Assembly: GCF_027627575.1 (NCBI RefSeq)
Contig: NZ_CP114065.1
Location: 5,952,001 to 6,016,000 of the forward strand
Reading direction: 5' to 3'
From: Kribbella sp. CA-293567
GTDB lineage: Bacteria; Actinomycetota; Actinomycetes; Propionibacteriales; Kribbellaceae
Length of the DNA: 64,000 bases
Positions 10,398-20,210 of this stretch are shown here, in pieces. A program made the position numbers and the translations under genes. Position 1 is the stretch's first letter. Every line of letters begins with the position of its first letter. Under the pieces are notes generated by a model. That model saw only the letters and a program-made list of their open reading frames with translations. It was not told the DNA's origin and did no database searches.

Positions 10398-11366
10398 TCA
10401 GGCGCGGACCTTGCGCACCAGCGAGGCCAGCCGCTGCGTCACGTCCCGCGGCCGCTCCTGCATCAGCATGTGCCCGGCCCCCGGATACATCCACAGCCGG
10501 GCAGACGGTACGAGTTGCGCCATCCGGTTGCCGTGCCGCGGCGGGATCAGCCGATCCCGGGTGCCGTGCATGATCTCGACCGGGATCCCGTCCAGCACCG
10601 CCAGCGCGTGCGCCAGGTCGTGCCGCGTGATCGCCTCGAAGAAGCCACCGAAGGACCGTCCGGGCAACCGCTGCAGATCCGCCATCAGGATGTCCACCTC
10701 GGCCGGATCCGCGTTCTTGCCGAACACCAACTGCCGTAGGGCCGGTCGCCGTACCCAAGCAGCCGGTACTGCGGCCGCCGCGCGCAGTCCTGCCGCTCGG
10801 CCGACCGGCGCCGCTTCCTCGGCCAAGCGAGCCGCTCGGCGCTCCATTCGCTGCCCTGCGAGGTTGATCGCGCGCGGCGCGAGCACCGCCGCGGTCCCGT
10901 CCAGCCGGGCCGGCAGACCGAAGGCGCGCGAGGTGAGCTGCCCCGACGACGTCGCGACCAGCGCCGCGGCCTTGATCCGCGACCCGATCAGGTCCGGCCG
11001 CTGGTCGGCCAGCGCCATCAGCGTCATCCCGCCCATGGAGTGCCCGGCGTAGACCACCGGCCCTTCTCCGACCACCTCGTCGAGCACGAACGCCAGATCG
11101 TCCGCCAGTTGCTCGATCCGCGTAGATCCTTCCGGCGCCGCCGCCGAACGACCATGCCCACGATGGTCGTACGCCACCACTCGCACCGAATCGGCGCCCA
11201 GTACCCGCGGCAGGCCAGCCAACTGGTGATGCCAACTGCGCGTCGAGCAGGTCCAGCCGTGCGCGAGCACCACTGTGACCGGCGCGTCGGGCGAACCTGT
11301 CGTCTCGACCTCGAGCCGCACTCCGTCCGGGGTGACCACACCGGATCGTTCAGCCTGCATCGTCAT
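10398..11366 (-). CDS. Alpha/beta hydrolase
   Basis: 322 residues. The oxyanion-hole strand VVLAHGWTCSTRSW comes first, then DHRGHGRS, the nucleophile elbow GHSMGG (Ser), a late Asp in MHGTRDRLIPP and the His in GAGHMLMQE. A helical cap lies between about 150 and 235. It looks like a lipase/esterase or haloperoxidase-type hydrolase; the substrate is unknown. ATG 11366 overlaps the SDR stop by 4 bases (ATGA). It is the last gene of the three-gene operon controlled from the MerR dyad at 14025-14043. Confidence 0.88.
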   Translation of the reverse strand: MTMQAERSGVVTPDGVRLEVETTGSPDAPVTVVLAHGWTCSTRSWHHQLAGLPRVLGADSVRVVAYDHRGHGRSAAAPEGSTRIEQLADDLAFVLDEVVGEGPVVYAGHSMGGMTLMALADQRPDLIGSRIKAAALVATSSGQLTSRAFGLPARLDGTAAVLAPRAINLAGQRMERRAARLAEEAAPVGRAAGLRAAAAVPAAWVRRPALRQLVFGKNADPAEVDILMADLQRLPGRSFGGFFEAITRHDLAHALAVLDGIPVEIMHGTRDRLIPPRHGNRMAQLVPSARLWMYPGAGHMLMQERPRDVTQRLASLVRKVRA

Positions 11367-12184
11367 AACTTCCCCAGTCTGTCCGTCCACTCGCCCAAAC
11401 CACCCTGACGGCGCTGCTGGTTCGTCCGCAACCTGACCAGCCTGTCGGCCACCGACGGCAGGTGCCGCGCGACCGCGACGGCCACGCCGGTCGAACGGGT
11501 GGAGGCCCGGTTCCGCGGCGGCCGCTTGGCACCGGCTACCTCGACGATCGTCCCAACAACCTGCGCCACCGTTTCGGCCGGCACCAACAGTCCCAGGTCG
11601 ACGCCACGGGCCAGCGAAGCGTCGTGGATCGGTGTGGGCACGTAGCCGGGGTAGATCACGCTCACGTCGATCGCCCGGCCGTTCTCGATCCGCAACGCGT
11701 CGGCATAGGTGTCGATCGCGCGCTTGGAGACCAGGTACGACGCCGCCAGCGGCAGCGTGACGTACGCGAGCCCGGAGGACACGAAGATCACCCGCCCGCG
11801 GGCGGCCCGCAGTACAGGGAGGGCCGCGGCCGTGACTCCCCAGCCGGCGAAGAGGTTCACCTCGATCACCTTGCGAGCCACGGCATCCGGCGCCTCCCCA
11901 GCCGGTGCCGGTACGCCGATGCCTGCGTTGTTGATCAGCAGGTCCAGCCCGCCGAGCCGCGCGATCGCCTCGTCGACAGCTCCGGGGATCTGGTCGGCCT
12001 GGCTCAGGTCGCATTCGATGACGTCATCTGCCTTCTGCAGATCGAGCCCGACCACGTCGGCACCCCGGGCCCGCAGTTGCTCGGCAGCCGCCGTACCGAA
12101 AGCGCCGGCGGCTCCCGTGATCAGCGCCTTCTTGCCTCGCAGGTCCCAGTCGCGCCGCTTCCGCAGCCCGGCCCGGCCGGTCAT
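11363..12184 (-). CDS. SDR-family oxidoreductase
   Basis: 273 residues. The cofactor site is TGAAGAFGT, then DLDLQ-type acid loop, NNAGIG, catalytic serine in FVSSGLAYV, and YLVSKRAID giving Tyr and Lys. The C-terminal extension (PPRNRASTRSTGVAVAVARHLPSVADRLVRLRTN) resembles SDRs that act on lipids or steroids. ATG 12184 overlaps the stop of the membrane-protein gene by 4 bases, and its own stop overlaps the hydrolase start. It is the middle gene of a tightly coupled operon. Confidence 0.87.
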   Translation of the reverse strand: MTGRAGLRKRRDWDLRGKKALITGAAGAFGTAAAEQLRARGADVVGLDLQKADDVIECDLSQADQIPGAVDEAIARLGGLDLLINNAGIGVPAPAGEAPDAVARKVIEVNLFAGWGVTAAALPVLRAARGRVIFVSSGLAYVTLPLAASYLVSKRAIDTYADALRIENGRAIDVSVIYPGYVPTPIHDASLARGVDLGLLVPAETVAQVVGTIVEVAGAKRPPRNRASTRSTGVAVAVARHLPSVADRLVRLRTNQQRRQGGLGEWTDRLGKL

Positions 12185-13986
12185 GCCGTCTCCCTTTCAC
12201 GCTCGGACTGCTCGAGATGCGCGGCCCGCAGCCGGCCACCGCGAGCGCCACGGCCGACCAGCCAGGCGATACCGACCAGCTCCAGCGACCCGACCACCGC
12301 GAGCAGGGCATAGCCACCGTTCCACATCCACCGCGGTACGTCGGTCCGCTCCTCGCGCCGCAGCGTCTGCTGCTCACCGACGAAGTCGACCGTCTGGCCG
12401 TTGGAGACCTGCTCGGCCGGCTTCTCGATCGCCACGTCCTCCGGTGCGTAGACCCACATCGCGACCAGATCCCGCGAGCCCTGGTGCAGCCGGATCATCG
12501 ACTTCCACCTGCCGTACATCGGCAGCGGCTCGGCCGACCGATAGATGCCATCTGCAACCTTCTCCATCGGATGGGTCAGCTGCCCGCCACCCTGCCAGGC
12601 CAGCGCCTCGAACCAGCGCGCGTCCTCGGCCGCGTCGGCCGGTTGCAGCTTGACCGTCACGTACGCCGTCGGCTGCGACCCGGTGGCCACCGGCTCCAGC
12701 GACACGGTCGCCGTCACGCCCGGGTCGGCGGACCGCGGTACGGAGAAGAAGAGCGTGGCCAGTACCGCGGTCAACCCGATCGCGCCGAGCTGGTGGGTCA
12801 AGCGGACCGGCGGGGTGTCGCGGACCTCGCCCGCGACCTCGGCGTACCGGGTGGCAAGCCAGGCACCGACGAGGCCCGCGCCCAGACCGGTCACCAACCC
12901 GAAGCCCAGCGCCGACGGCAGCATCGAGGCCGGCCAGTGGATCGGCATCCAGACCTGCGACCAGCCGTACTCCGCGAGTACGCCGACCGTGCCGATCAGC
13001 GCGCCGGCGACCAGGCCCAGCCGGAAGCGGTTTTTGTTGCCCAGGACAAGTGCTGTCAGCTCGACCAGGACCGCCTCGACGATCAGCAGCGGGAAGTGGC
13101 CGAGGATCTCGCCGAGCGGCTGGTCGACCGCCCAGGCGATCCCGCCGCGAATCACCAGGTAGACGGCGAGCGCGCCGAACGTCGTACCGGGACCGCGGCG
13201 CGAGCGCAGCAGGGTGAAGGCGAGCGTCGACCCGAAGACGATCAGGATCGGCTGCAGGATCAGCGGGAACTGCGGCACGCCGTAGTTGAACTCGGTGCTG
13301 AACAGGTCCCAGGCGATCAGCAGCGCACCGACGGCGATGATCTCCTGGGCCCGCCGGCGCAGGTTGAGGCCGACCAGTTGCTCGACCTCCGCCGAGGCGA
13401 GCAGCCGGGCGAAGATCGAGAAGACGACGCCGCCGATCATCAGCAGGTGGGTCGGCCCCCAGAGCGTGACGTCCTCACCGAACAGCCGGTGCCAGACGTC
13501 GTCGAGCGGGAAGCCGACCAGCGCGAAGGTGCCGCAGACCGTCACCAGTGCCGCGCTGCACGGGATCCGCCAGCCCTTGGTCAGCTTGATCGTCCGGGCC
13601 GGCAGCGGTTTGCGGGCCAGCGCGATCGGCAGCACGCCGGAGACGATCACGCCGAGGATGCCGAAGAAGATCGGGTAGTGCGCCGGCGTACCGAAAGGGC
13701 CGGTGTCGCGACCCTGGTCGATGTGCACGGCGATGTCCCACCAGACCCCGAAGGCGCAGGACAGCAGTGAGACCGCATGCAGGTACGGCGTCAACGCGGC
13801 CCATCGGGGGACTCCGTCCAGTCTCCCGATGGTGTCCGCGAGGCGCCCTACCAGCGTCACCCGCCCGGTCCGTTCCCGCCACAGCAGCACGGCGAGTGCG
13901 AGGTACAGCAGTGCGACCAGCCCGGTGACGATCGCGATCTGGCCGAACGTCGCGGTTCCGGTCGAGGCCGCCAAGGGGACGGTCAT
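12181..13986 (-). CDS. Polytopic membrane protein with C-terminal YtkA/FixH-like domain
   Basis: 601 residues, not matched to a named transporter. About 11-12 hydrophobic helices fill residues 10-405, with buried charged or polar residues in WWDIAVHIDQGRDTGPFGTPAHYPIFF and WGPTHLLMIGGVVF (several His and Asp, possible metal or heme ligands). Residues about 430-550 form an exported beta domain whose DGIYRSAEPLPMYGRWKSMIRLHQG segment resembles YtkA/FixH domains. A last helix (ALLAVVGSLELVGIAWLVG) anchors the C-terminus. ATG 13986 has a perfect AAGGAG site. It heads the operon divergent from the MerR regulator. Confidence 0.75.
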   Translation of the reverse strand: MTVPLAASTGTATFGQIAIVTGLVALLYLALAVLLWRERTGRVTLVGRLADTIGRLDGVPRWAALTPYLHAVSLLSCAFGVWWDIAVHIDQGRDTGPFGTPAHYPIFFGILGVIVSGVLPIALARKPLPARTIKLTKGWRIPCSAALVTVCGTFALVGFPLDDVWHRLFGEDVTLWGPTHLLMIGGVVFSIFARLLASAEVEQLVGLNLRRRAQEIIAVGALLIAWDLFSTEFNYGVPQFPLILQPILIVFGSTLAFTLLRSRRGPGTTFGALAVYLVIRGGIAWAVDQPLGEILGHFPLLIVEAVLVELTALVLGNKNRFRLGLVAGALIGTVGVLAEYGWSQVWMPIHWPASMLPSALGFGLVTGLGAGLVGAWLATRYAEVAGEVRDTPPVRLTHQLGAIGLTAVLATLFFSVPRSADPGVTATVSLEPVATGSQPTAYVTVKLQPADAAEDARWFEALAWQGGGQLTHPMEKVADGIYRSAEPLPMYGRWKSMIRLHQGSRDLVAMWVYAPEDVAIEKPAEQVSNGQTVDFVGEQQTLRREERTDVPRWMWNGGYALLAVVGSLELVGIAWLVGRGARGGRLRAAHLEQSERERETA

Positions 13987-14024
13987 TCGGCACTCCTTCG
14001 GTCGCACCATATGCCACGGGTGAT

Positions 14025-14043
14025 GTTACATAAGATATGTAAC
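14025..14043. promoter_or_regulatory. MerR-type dyad operator overlapping divergent -10 boxes
   Basis: GTTACAT-AAGAT-ATGTAAC is a perfect inverted repeat with 7-base arms and a 5-base spacer. On the forward strand it contains TAAGAT (14031-14036), 7 bases before the regulator's GTG 14044. On the reverse strand the same dyad contains TATCTT, a -10 for the leftward operon with a 45-base leader. Binding here would control both directions at once. Confidence 0.7.
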
Positions 14044-14838
14044 GTGCAGTCTGGAAGACTGTCAAGGGTGGGAGGACAGACACCGGCCGAGTCGGGCCCA
14101 GAAGCGGAGTTCACCGTCGACCAGCTGGCCGCGAAGGTCGGCATGACGGTGCGGAACGTGCGCGCGTACGCCGGCCGCGGCCTGATCCCGCCACCCCGGC
14201 TGGCCGGCCGCACCGGGTACTACGGCGCCGACCACGTCGCGCGTCTGACCCTGGTCCGCGAACTGCTCGACAAGGGCTACACGCTGGCGGCGGTCGAGCG
14301 GATGATGAGCGAACTGCCCGACGGCGCACTGGCCCTGGGCGTGTTCGAGACGCTGGTCAGCCCCTGGACGCCGACCGAGCCCGAGGTCATCACCGAGCAG
14401 CAGCTGGCCGACCGCGCGGGCATCCCGCACAACGCCGAGACGATCGCCAAACTGGTCGAGCTGGGTATCGCCGAGCGCCAGGACGACGGCCGGCTGCGGA
14501 TCCCGAACCCCGACCTGCTCCGCACCGGCCTCGAGGTGATCAAGCTCGGCGTCCCGCTGGAGGCGATCTTCGAGATGCTGCCCAAGCTGTTCAGCCACGC
14601 CGACGCGGTCGCCAAGGTCTACGTCGAGCTGTTCCGCGGCACCGTCTGGCGCGAGTTCGCCGACGCCGGCCTCCCCGCCGACGGCTGGCCCGAGATCCAG
14701 CGCACCCTGGAGAACATCATCCCGCTCGCCGGCCAGGCCCTGGTCGCCGCCTTCCGCGAGGCCATGGGCCGCGAGATCGAGGTAGTCGCCTACGAGGAAC
14801 TGGGCCTCGCCCCCGACTCCCTCCCCTCCACCGGCTGA
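14044..14838 (+). CDS. MerR-family transcriptional regulator
   Basis: 264 residues. The DNA-binding domain begins at about residue 21 (FTVDQLAAKVGMTVRNVRAYAGRGLIPPP) with the wing AGRTGYYGADHVARLTLVRELLDKGYTLAAVERMM. The C-terminal ~170 residues are helical and lack the cysteines of metal-sensing MerR proteins, so an organic ligand is likelier. The leaderless GTG 14044 is favoured by the TAAGAT box. The dyad at 14025-14043 abuts it, suggesting autoregulation plus control of the membrane protein/SDR/hydrolase operon. Confidence 0.87.
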   Translation: MQSGRLSRVGGQTPAESGPEAEFTVDQLAAKVGMTVRNVRAYAGRGLIPPPRLAGRTGYYGADHVARLTLVRELLDKGYTLAAVERMMSELPDGALALGVFETLVSPWTPTEPEVITEQQLADRAGIPHNAETIAKLVELGIAERQDDGRLRIPNPDLLRTGLEVIKLGVPLEAIFEMLPKLFSHADAVAKVYVELFRGTVWREFADAGLPADGWPEIQRTLENIIPLAGQALVAAFREAMGREIEVVAYEELGLAPDSLPSTG

Positions 14839-16480: not shown

Positions 16481-16661
16481 TCTGCCGGCCGGTGGTCGGC
16501 AGGTCACCGAGGTCGGCGTCCCAGTCGTCCTCGTCGTCGGCCGCGGCCTCGTCGTTGCGGCGGGCGATCCGGACGAAGGCGACGATCAGCAGGATCGGAC
16601 CGAGGAACATCGCGACCTCCGGGACGCCGCCCAGGTGCAGCGCGATCAACTGGGCGGTCAC
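16443..16661 (-). CDS. Small single-helix membrane protein
   Basis: 72 residues: one membrane helix (VPEVAMFLGPILLIVAFVRIA) and an acidic cytoplasmic tail (NDEAAADDEDDWDADLGDLP). Function unknown. GTG 16661 overlaps the stop of the upstream 437-residue membrane gene by 4 bases, which supports it being real. Its last 38 bases are antisense to the 3' end of the beta-propeller gene. Confidence 0.6.
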   Translation of the reverse strand: MTAQLIALHLGGVPEVAMFLGPILLIVAFVRIARRNDEAAADDEDDWDADLGDLPTTGRQISESSPGSRHRS

Positions 16662-17971
16662 GAGGCTGTCACCAGCGCGATCCCACCGGCGGTGAAGGCG
16701 ATCATCGCCGCCAGCATCGGGTACTGCGCCCGCCGGAGCTGACGCCGTCTGAACAGCTGCGTGGCGCGATCGTGCGCCGACACCACCCCGACTACATGCC
16801 CGAGCACGATCGCGCTGAGCTGGACCGCCGCGATCAGTCCGGTGCCCAGGAACCCGTAGTCGACACGAGCGGCCCCGACGCCGAACAGGTCCCAGCCACG
16901 GCCGAACGGATCCGTTGCCAGCAGCAACCCTTCCTGGCCTTGGAACATCGCGAACGAGAAGTAGTGCGCGACGGCGTACCCGATGGCGATCGGTACCAGC
17001 GAGTGCACGAAGGCTCCCGGCAGACCAGCCCGGCCGAGCGCCCCCGGCCGGATCCTCGCTGATCCGGTCGCCCGCGCGGCGATCAGGAACAGGGCGGTGA
17101 CAACAGCAACCGCGGCCAGCAGACCGAGAGTGCTGACCAGGATCTGCGCGGCCGAATCCAACTCAGCGGTGAGGCCGGTCCAGAACGACCAGCGGCTGAT
17201 GCCGTCGAAAGCCGTCGAGCCGAGCAACAGGCAGAGCAGACCGACCACACCCGGCTCCTGCGGGACCGTCGCCAGGCCCGCGAGCGGGTTGCGGAGCACG
17301 AGACGGCGCTGGTCGTCACGGCCGAGCGGGCTGAGCTTGGTGAGCACCTCGGCGTACACCTCGAAGCTGTCACCGATCGCGAACCAGCGCGGTCCGTAGA
17401 TGATGCCTGCAGCAACATTCACCAGCGCGTACGCCGTGACGAAGACCGCGACGACAACCGGCCGCGAGCCTTCGGGGTAGGCCAGCTCGAGCCACAGGAA
17501 GCCGAACAGTCCCGCCACCGCCGGCCAGTAGGCGATCCCGTCCGGCAACGCCCGGTGCGACGTACGCGGCACCCAGCCGGCGAGGGTGCGGAGCGGATTG
17601 GCGAGCCGCCAGATCGGCCCGAAGAGCAGGGAGAGCGGAATGATGCCGACCCAGATCCAGACGTAGAGCCAGGTCGGGGCGGGATTGAGGCTTGGCGAAC
17701 TGCTGCCGAACCAGGAGGCGCCCAGCAGCAGCGCGAGGGCGAGCAGCCCGGTTGCCTTGAGCAACCACCGTGTCGGCCGGGCGTCGGTGACCCGCCGCAG
17801 CCGGCGCAGCGGCGTACCGGCGGGGATCTCGAATCGCGGCTTCGACCAGAAGGCGGCCAGCGCGAAGAACGAGACGGCCACCGCGGCAGCGGCCGAGTAG
17901 ATCGCGAGCCACAGCGGAACCGGCAGGTCGCCCCGGCCACCGATGCCGTGCAGCGGAAGCAGCAGGACCAC
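16658..17971 (-). CDS. Polytopic membrane protein of unknown function
   Basis: 437 residues with about 10-11 hydrophobic helices. It begins MVLLLPLHGIGGRGDLPVPLWLAIY; a buried His (LPLHGIG) and the motifs PIWRLANPLRTL, YGPRWFAIGDSFEVYAEVL and GYAVAHYFSFAMFQGQEGLL stand out. I recall related actinobacterial proteins carrying the name fenitrothion hydrolase, but nothing in the sequence shows hydrolase chemistry, so I do not assign it. GTG 17971 follows a GGAGGG ribosome site. It is coupled to the 72-residue gene downstream. Confidence 0.7.
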   Translation of the reverse strand: MVLLLPLHGIGGRGDLPVPLWLAIYSAAAAVAVSFFALAAFWSKPRFEIPAGTPLRRLRRVTDARPTRWLLKATGLLALALLLGASWFGSSSPSLNPAPTWLYVWIWVGIIPLSLLFGPIWRLANPLRTLAGWVPRTSHRALPDGIAYWPAVAGLFGFLWLELAYPEGSRPVVVAVFVTAYALVNVAAGIIYGPRWFAIGDSFEVYAEVLTKLSPLGRDDQRRLVLRNPLAGLATVPQEPGVVGLLCLLLGSTAFDGISRWSFWTGLTAELDSAAQILVSTLGLLAAVAVVTALFLIAARATGSARIRPGALGRAGLPGAFVHSLVPIAIGYAVAHYFSFAMFQGQEGLLLATDPFGRGWDLFGVGAARVDYGFLGTGLIAAVQLSAIVLGHVVGVVSAHDRATQLFRRRQLRRAQYPMLAAMIAFTAGGIALVTAS

Positions 17972-18006: not shown

Positions 18007-18012
18007 AATGTA
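18007..18012 (-). promoter_or_regulatory. Candidate -10 box for the membrane-protein pair
   Basis: TACATT on the reverse strand, about 35 bases before GTG 17971; the leader contains the GGAGGG ribosome site. Confidence 0.35.
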
Positions 18013-18042
18013 ACACGCTCGATGTCACGTAGCGAGAGTTCG

Positions 18043-19569: not shown

Positions 19570-19580
19570 AGAGTGTGCAA

Positions 19581-20210
19581 GTGACCTCGACCACGGACGG
19601 CGCAGTACCGGTGAAGCGCCGACGGGACCGCGCGGCACGGGAACTGGAGATCCTGGACGCCGCCGAGCGGATCTTCGGCGAACGGGGCTACCAGGGCACC
19701 TCGATGGACGACGTCGCAGCAGAGGTGGGCGTCTCCAAACCGCTGATCTACCAGTACTACGGCTCGAAGGACGGCCTGTTCCTCGCCTGCCTGTCCCGGC
19801 TCCGCGCGCAACTCCTGGACGCGGTGTCCGACGCGGTCCTCGGCGCCGCCGACCCCGAGCAGGCCATGTACGCCGGTTTCCTTGCCTGGTTCACCTTCCT
19901 GGACGATCACCCCCGTGCCTGGGCAGTGCTGGTCGACGAAGGCATGCTGGCAGCCGGCCCGGCCGCACAGGCAGCCGACGAAGTCCGGGCGGAGTTCGTC
20001 GCCCTGATCGCCACCATGGTCCGGCTCAACCTGCCCGCCGGCCGCCCGGCGGATGAGGAAGAGATCCAGATCGTGGCCCAGACCGTCTCCGGCGCCACCG
20101 AACGGCTGGCCGTCTGGCGCACCCGTAACGGCGGCACCCCGTCCGCCGAGAAGGTCGCCACCACGCTCCAGCAACTCCTCTGGCAAGGCCTGGACTCACT
20201 CCGCCGCTGA
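19581..20210 (+). CDS. TetR-family transcriptional regulator
   Basis: 209 residues. The DNA-binding domain reads ILDAAERIFGERGYQGTSMDDVAAEVGVSKPLIYQYYGSKDGLFLACL (about residues 25-75), followed by a helical ligand domain. GTG 19581 is chosen over GTG 19575 because TAGAGT (19569-19574) lies 6 bases upstream, giving a leaderless start. It is divergent from the monooxygenase and probably represses it and itself through the tandem sites at 19537-19569. The inducer is likely the oxygenase substrate or a relative. Confidence 0.88.
   Translation: MTSTTDGAVPVKRRRDRAARELEILDAAERIFGERGYQGTSMDDVAAEVGVSKPLIYQYYGSKDGLFLACLSRLRAQLLDAVSDAVLGAADPEQAMYAGFLAWFTFLDDHPRAWAVLVDEGMLAAGPAAQAADEVRAEFVALIATMVRLNLPAGRPADEEEIQIVAQTVSGATERLAVWRTRNGGTPSAEKVATTLQQLLWQGLDSLRR

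Follow-up and report, generated by a model that had tools for sequence, protein, structure and literature searches.

A perfect inverted repeat in the genome of Kribbella sp. CA-293567, GTTACAT-N5-ATGTAAC, in all likelihood serves as operator for the MerR-family regulator encoded beside it. It lies in a 64,000-nucleotide stretch of DNA (the window; all coordinates without a contig label refer to it). In textbooks, MerR proteins stand for activation through distortion of DNA. Here, the explanation that we favour, with slightly more than even confidence, is that the regulator would bind over the -10 element and start point of a divergent operon, repress it by occlusion and be released by a ligand. 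The repeat (dyad) and the genes concerned are as follows:

14025..14043, unstranded: dyad GTTACAT-N5-ATGTAAC, core of the putative operator, exact in 36/37 genus genomes
14068..14838, + strand: MerR-family regulator, 256 aa from GTG 14068, Pfam MerR_1 at E 3.3e-20, start in 37/37
12181..13986, - strand: first gene of the operon, 601-aa protein, a membrane protein by sequence inspection
11363..12184, - strand: next operon gene, short-chain dehydrogenase, Pfam adh_short at E 1.7e-32
10398..11330, - strand: next operon gene, alpha/beta hydrolase, Pfam Abhydrolase_1 at E 2.6e-27

The sequence at 14025-14043, GTTACATAAGATATGTAAC, has two perfect 7-bp arms, just as an earlier sequence-only reading of this DNA had described. 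It is the single exact copy in the whole 7.6-Mb genome. When up to three mismatches are allowed, there are two matches within the window (0.13 expected) and 18 sites per strand genome-wide, against seven for a reversed control. That reading had suggested looking for the dyad in relatives. We searched 58 related genomes, 37 of which belong to the window's genus, and all 37 carry a close MerR homologue with the dyad upstream of its gene; the only inexact copy, in locus L019 (genome G020), has a single mismatch. With up to one mismatch, five genus genomes (G005, G009, G027, G028, and G035) have one further copy elsewhere, and G051, the only one of 21 non-genus genomes with any, has two; the reversed control matches once, in G026.

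In ungapped alignment columns from the 37 genomes, the arms are invariant except for one T to A in L019, while the core positions 14032-14035 vary and T14036 is retained in 35/37. The conserved block runs from 14009 to approximately 14071, and its invariant positions beyond the dyad include AT at 14023-14024, TCTG at 14050-14053, and ACTGTCAA at 14058-14065; the operon side below approximately 14000 is not conserved. Its conservation marks the dyad as functional. One genome, G027, has an intact dyad next to a MerR gene that is broken, either in reality or in its sequence: the homologue (G027:C1:6028683-6029469) appears as two overlapping matches, to residues 2-130 and 121-264.

The regulator belongs to the MerR family by its N-terminal winged-helix domain, which scores above the Pfam MerR_1 cut-off, but it falls outside the named subfamilies (SoxR, HspR, MerR, CueR, CadR-PbrR): none of the ten NCBIfam models that match comes near its cut-off (SoxR, for example, reaches 32.6 of the 116.9 bits needed). 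At E 0.001, Pfam finds only MerR models in the protein, so its C-terminal part has no family and no B12-binding domain at that threshold. A sequence-profile search gives SCO5550 (2dg6, E 1.5e-6) as the best relative of known structure. The predicted structure is weak (mean pLDDT 70.5, pTM 0.37), and a Foldseek search with it gave no matches at E 0.001 or better; we therefore assign no ligand to the protein. The top match, itself weak (E 3.0e-3), is CvkR. Neither Pfam nor NCBIfam assigns the 601-aa membrane protein to a family at E 0.001.

Reading the promoters requires a rule for this genome, which we derived from 405 upstream regions (800 kb of the Kribbella genome plus the window). At 6-7 bp before start codons, TANNNT is found 47 times where 3.8 would be expected, a strong signal of leaderless promoters. 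Their -10 box requires A at base 2 and T at base 6, but tolerates C or G at base 1 (20 each, against 7.7 and 10.0 expected); T at base 2 is seen five times where 5.0 are expected. There is no -35 signal in the aligned set of 47 TANNNT regions. A general rule for pairing -35 and -10 elements was sought from TTGAC in the genome's own upstream regions, and it had to be dropped, as no spacing was clearly favoured.

The sequence-only reading had placed two opposed -10 boxes within the dyad's core, one for the operon and one for a MerR gene translated without a leader from GTG 14044:

14031..14036, + strand: TAAGAT, proposed there as the MerR -10, fits TANNNT in 15/37
14032..14037, - strand: TATCTT, proposed there as the operon -10, fits TANNNT in 15/37

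In its favour, TAAGAT stands 7 bp before GTG 14044, and the genome's leaderless spacing of 6-7 bp makes this a real promoter distance. However, both boxes lie in the variable core and are probably not conserved promoter elements, and TATCTT is 22 bp from the TTGACA listed below. The start codon fares no better. Position 14044 has GTG in 30 genomes, GTC in four, GTT in two, and GAG in one, and in three of the 30 with GTG the next codon is a stop, so we rejected it as the conserved start. An in-frame GTG at 14068 is instead present in 37/37 (in L004 and L025 only after a one-base deletion just upstream) and is the start picked by a codon-usage gene caller. Minority bases in 14047-14067 number 7, 16, and 13 at codon positions 1, 2, and 3, and the lack of a third-position excess gives supporting evidence, from few sites, that this segment is non-coding. 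A leaderless start at 14044 is possible in this genome alone, but the earlier arrangement as a whole now looks quite improbable.

Candidates that follow the conserved positions are found nearer the dyad's edges:

14060..14065, - strand: TTGACA, proposed operon -35, 37/37
14037..14042, - strand: TTACAT, proposed operon -10, 17 bp from TTGACA, predicted start at approximately 14030, 37/37
14023..14028, - strand: TAACAT edge box, rival operon -10, 36/37, confounded with an operator unit
14040..14045, + strand: TAACGT edge box, candidate MerR -10, 36/37, confounded with an operator unit

On the minus strand, TTGACA-N17-TTACAT is invariant in 37/37, and it is the better-supported reading of the operon promoter, with its -10 in the right arm of the dyad. 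The earlier claim that the dyad covers the operon's -10 thus survives in part: judged from the sequence, it appears to lie over the -10 and the start point, but the boxes are not those first named. Two findings count against TTACAT as the -10. It lacks the A at position 2 that leaderless promoters require, and in one relative (L126) the best -35 before TTACAT matches at only three of six positions. The conservation of TTGACA might, in principle, have some other cause.

That relative comes from a scan of TNACAT hexamers upstream of the gene homologous to the operon's first gene, for which the best -35 at spacers of 16-19 was taken (29 class-wide loci plus L080). Seven of the hexamers are TTACAT. 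Four are preceded at N18 by a -35 matching at 5/6 positions (TGGACA in L119; TTGCCA in L121, L122, and L080), while L118 has TTGCGA at N17 (4/6) and a second TTACAT in L119 has a 4/6 match at N16. An in-frame start codon follows TTACAT by 6 bp in L118, L119, L121, and L122, which may only reflect the next operator unit (see below) beginning there. In further relatives, -10-like sequences whose distance from the dyad differs were read by eye: L138 has TTGACA-N17-CACACT, and L127, L128, and L130 have CATNNT 11 bp beyond the dyad and 6 bp before an ATG.

If the proposed promoter is right, the regulator encoded at 14068-14838, bound to the dyad as its operator, would cover about -13 to +6 of the operon promoter, blocking RNA polymerase there. 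The dyad would span the operon's -10 and start point as well as an overlapping MerR promoter, so that the bound regulator would probably repress its own gene too, until a ligand released it. Repression by occlusion is the likeliest mechanism, on the grounds of geometry: a dyad over the -10 and start, not neatly between -35 and -10, fits occlusion better than untwisting, and a promoter with a perfect -35 and a 17-bp spacer should not need help.

The main competitor is a near-classical activator, in which the operon's -10 is TAACAT (14028-14023) with a weak -35, CAGACT (14053-14048), 19 bp upstream, and the regulator occupies chiefly the long spacer, which it untwists once its ligand is present. 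TTGACA-N17-TTACAT does not give the classical layout, whereas CAGACT-N19-TAACAT would supply the 19-bp spacer. TAACAT obeys the genome's -10 rule in 36/37, CAGACT is retained in 30/37, and a paralogous MerR locus provides a precedent. The recognition segments of the two proteins are almost the same (GMTVRTLRFY against GMTVRNVRAY), and GTGACA-N7-TGTCAC precedes the paralogue's gene at up to two mismatches in 37/37 same-genus regions. On the minus strand, that dyad is followed by AAT in 37/37 and preceded, at 3 bases, by TTGAC (34 to 37 of 37 by column), so the locus reads TTGACC-N19-CACAAT around a related dyad. This is a near-classical MerR layout with the dyad in a 19-bp spacer, and it bears out the contrast with the classical arrangement that the sequence-only reading had drawn. 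The fit is not complete: in the available text of PMC5045206, CueR and MerR sites are centred 7-8 bp from the -35, while the paralogue's centre is nearer the -10.

The near-classical competitor is nevertheless unlikely in our judgement. CAGACT matches TTGACA at just three of six positions, and the invariant TTGACA is left unexplained. Moreover, the outer AT of TAACAT is part of the 9-bp operator unit found in relatives, so the box may be retained for that reason. The paralogue also retains a T at the matching place on the other side of its dyad (37/37), where a separate box, of the TATGAT type, belongs to the MerR gene. These points also weakened a candidate arrangement in which the edge boxes TAACAT and TAACGT are both -10s: the flanking AT and GT belong to the relatives' unit (the last two bases of TAACGT are shared with it), and the paralogue has the T on both sides.

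Two other candidates near the dyad were rejected. The palindrome AGTCT-GGA-AGACT (14048-14060), considered as a second operator, is exact in only 23/37 genomes; it falls between the proposed operon -35 and -10. The other, ATGGCGCAT (14017-14009, minus strand), was considered as the origin of a conserved leader peptide or of a leaderless operon; the reading frames concerned differ in length and frame among the 37 genomes, so we prefer to interpret this box as an operator unit.

Such units are the second part of our finding. We propose, as a new description drawn from sequence comparison, that the operator is built from 9-bp near-palindromic units, ATGTNACAT, spaced 14 or 15 bp apart. The candidates around the dyad, scored over eight positions and averaged, are:

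14023..14031: left unit, ATGTTACAT, 8/8, invariant except for the centre base in one genome
14037..14045: right unit, ATGTAACGT, 14 bp from the left unit, 6.97 of 8
14009..14017: possible third, degenerate unit in the 14-bp register, consensus ATGCGCCAT, here ATATGCCAC, 5.73 of 8
14051..14059: weak candidate fourth unit, in register, 4.14 of 8

Among 100 offsets outside the core, the third unit ranks first and the fourth ranks third; 13995-14003 fits more poorly (3.84 of 8, rank 5). For both flanking positions together, ATGTNACAT is third of 256 self-mirrored units, i.e., a good fit but not a unique one.

Class-wide searches of 394 genomes show how far the code extends. A MerR match at E 1e-25 was found in 118 genomes and a homologue of the 601-aa protein at E 1e-10 in 58, and from each search 30 loci, including the window's own, were examined. 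Before MerR homologues (29 plus L080), GTKACA-N7-TGTMAC is exact in 3/30 (L080, L082, and L085), has one mismatch in two, and has two mismatches in one. Before homologues of the operon's first gene, it is exact in 3/29 (L126, L128, and L138, the first of which is L085 found again) and has two mismatches in two. At up to two mismatches, it is absent from 24/30 MerR-homologue and 24/29 neighbour-gene regions. Seven of these code-less regions contain 9-bp units instead of the dyad: copies of ATGTNACAT occur in the neighbour-gene regions L118, L119, L121, and L122 and in the MerR regions L088, L090, and L094.

Across 59 regions, pairs of units each matching at least 6/8 positions occur seven times at 14 bp and ten times at 15 bp, against 0.02 each in shuffles, and hardly at any other distance. 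One 14-bp pair is counted twice, as L085 and L126 are one locus, and the unit was noticed in some of the counted regions, so the count is not fully independent, although the spacing was not imposed. Three clear units stand in a row in L118, L121, and L082. Action in trans is suggested by two genomes (G318 with L128 and G358 with L138), where the neighbour gene has the exact site but the best MerR homologue is encoded on a different contig. Read by eye, L109 and L110 have before their MerR homologues a second overlapping dyad, GTAACA-N7-TGTCAC, that has one arm in common with the first.

The recurrence of the code at MerR homologues in other families, and the dyad's position directly before this MerR gene in 37/37, also bear on whether a different protein might bind it, e.g., the paralogous MerR or the TetR regulator at 19575-20210. 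Each half-site of the paralogue's dyad is one base away from ours, which makes cross-binding possible, but we consider a different regulator very improbable.

A more ambitious reading of the units is that they form a phased array: a chain of MerR proteins on ATGTNACAT units every 14-15 bp would seal both promoters, with the dyad as the strong middle of perhaps four or five units here (starting at 13995, 14009, 14023, 14037, and 14051), while the paralogue, with a single dyad of almost the same half-sites placed in a 19-bp spacer, would activate. We offer this tentatively, as something that may well not hold. If true, it would mean that sister regulators share one DNA code and differ in mechanism through promoter geometry.

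A near-copy of the code lies elsewhere in the window:

18010..18028, - strand: second operator-like site, GTGACATCGAGCGTGTTAC, before the gene for a 437-aa protein
16658..17971, - strand: gene for the 437-aa protein behind this site, without a family in Pfam or NCBIfam at E 0.001

Matches came from 37 same-genus genomes, 30 of these loci were examined, and the site is retained in all 30: 29 have one mismatch to GTKACA-N7-TGTMAC and L225 has two. After the site comes ATTC, which completes a TANNNT box, TACATT. The same MerR regulator probably controls both operons, acting on the neighbouring one through 18010-18028, though the paralogous MerR could conceivably be the regulator there. The 601-aa and 437-aa proteins seem to form a pair beyond the genus as well, since G038 and G054 encode their homologues less than 1 kb apart on one strand.

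Genome-wide, the family pattern is exact three times (the dyad here, 4256840, and 6360472) and at up to one mismatch has 15 sites per strand, against seven for the reversed control. The site at 4256840 (L213), exact to the pattern, is a second one for the paralogue: it lies directly upstream of a CoA-transferase-like reading frame, approximately 5 kb from the site that precedes the paralogue's gene (G000:C1:4251918, L219). The one at 6360472 (L214, G000:C1:6360472) is approximately 50 bp before a frame that looks by inspection like a biotin carboxylase.

Among the papers listed in our searches of open PMC text, none concerns this regulator or operator; in a text search for both arm sequences, the top paper among the matches listed concerns the UmuDAb SOS box of Acinetobacter. 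Repression by MerR-type proteins whose sites overlap the -10 is already known, to judge from the available parts of PMC9938897. There, the CvkR site at PtnsB overlaps both the start site and, partly, the -10 of a promoter with a 17-nt spacer, and HnoC and McdR are cited for palindromes overlapping the start site and -10 (McdR is also described in the accessible portion of PMC9040748). The proposed promoter, with its predicted start, would have the same arrangement here. CvkR, from a cyanobacterial type V-K CAST, has a motif, AnnACATnATGTnnT, that shares the ACAT/ATGT half-sites with our dyad; however, the same partial source places them 1 base apart, compared with 5 here. The Kribbella protein, at 256 aa, is longer than CvkR and has a different C-terminal part, and its repressor role is a proposal.

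The classical systems differ from the one proposed here, as far as the excerpts go. Like MerR and CueR (PMC9909328, PMC5045206), the protein here has a MerR winged-helix domain and a palindromic operator at a core promoter, but their spacers are 19-20 bp and the proposed one is 17 bp; the operator's centre (14034) is approximately 25 bp from the end of TTGACA, compared with the 7-8 bp of CueR and MerR sites (PMC5045206). The merR/merT region, in the part of PMC11049809 available, also combines a divergent regulator and operon with partly overlapping promoters in one intergenic region, but its operator lies in a 19-bp spacer, unlike the layout proposed here. Repression through MerR-type domains by promoter blocking or by multimers on repeats is described in extracts for CarA/CarH (PMC8156234) and BldC (via PMC9938897). 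CarH uses 11-bp direct repeats and B12 (PMC8156234, same extract), while the units proposed here are near-palindromes of 9 bp spaced by 14-15 bp. Repeated units at 14 or 15 bp are found in relatives; the flanking units at the window's locus are degenerate, and multimer binding is putative.

The novelty lies in the MerR subfamily itself, in the code and period of its operator, and in how it contrasts with the paralogue. Within the same genomes, two related regulators rely on nearly the same half-site, one within a 19-bp spacer and the other apparently over a -10 and start with 17-bp spacing, which makes them a natural comparison for how a MerR protein could become a repressor through the position of its operator. 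The work also provides a testable operator code, ATGTNACAT with a 14-15 bp period, for an actinobacterial MerR subfamily.
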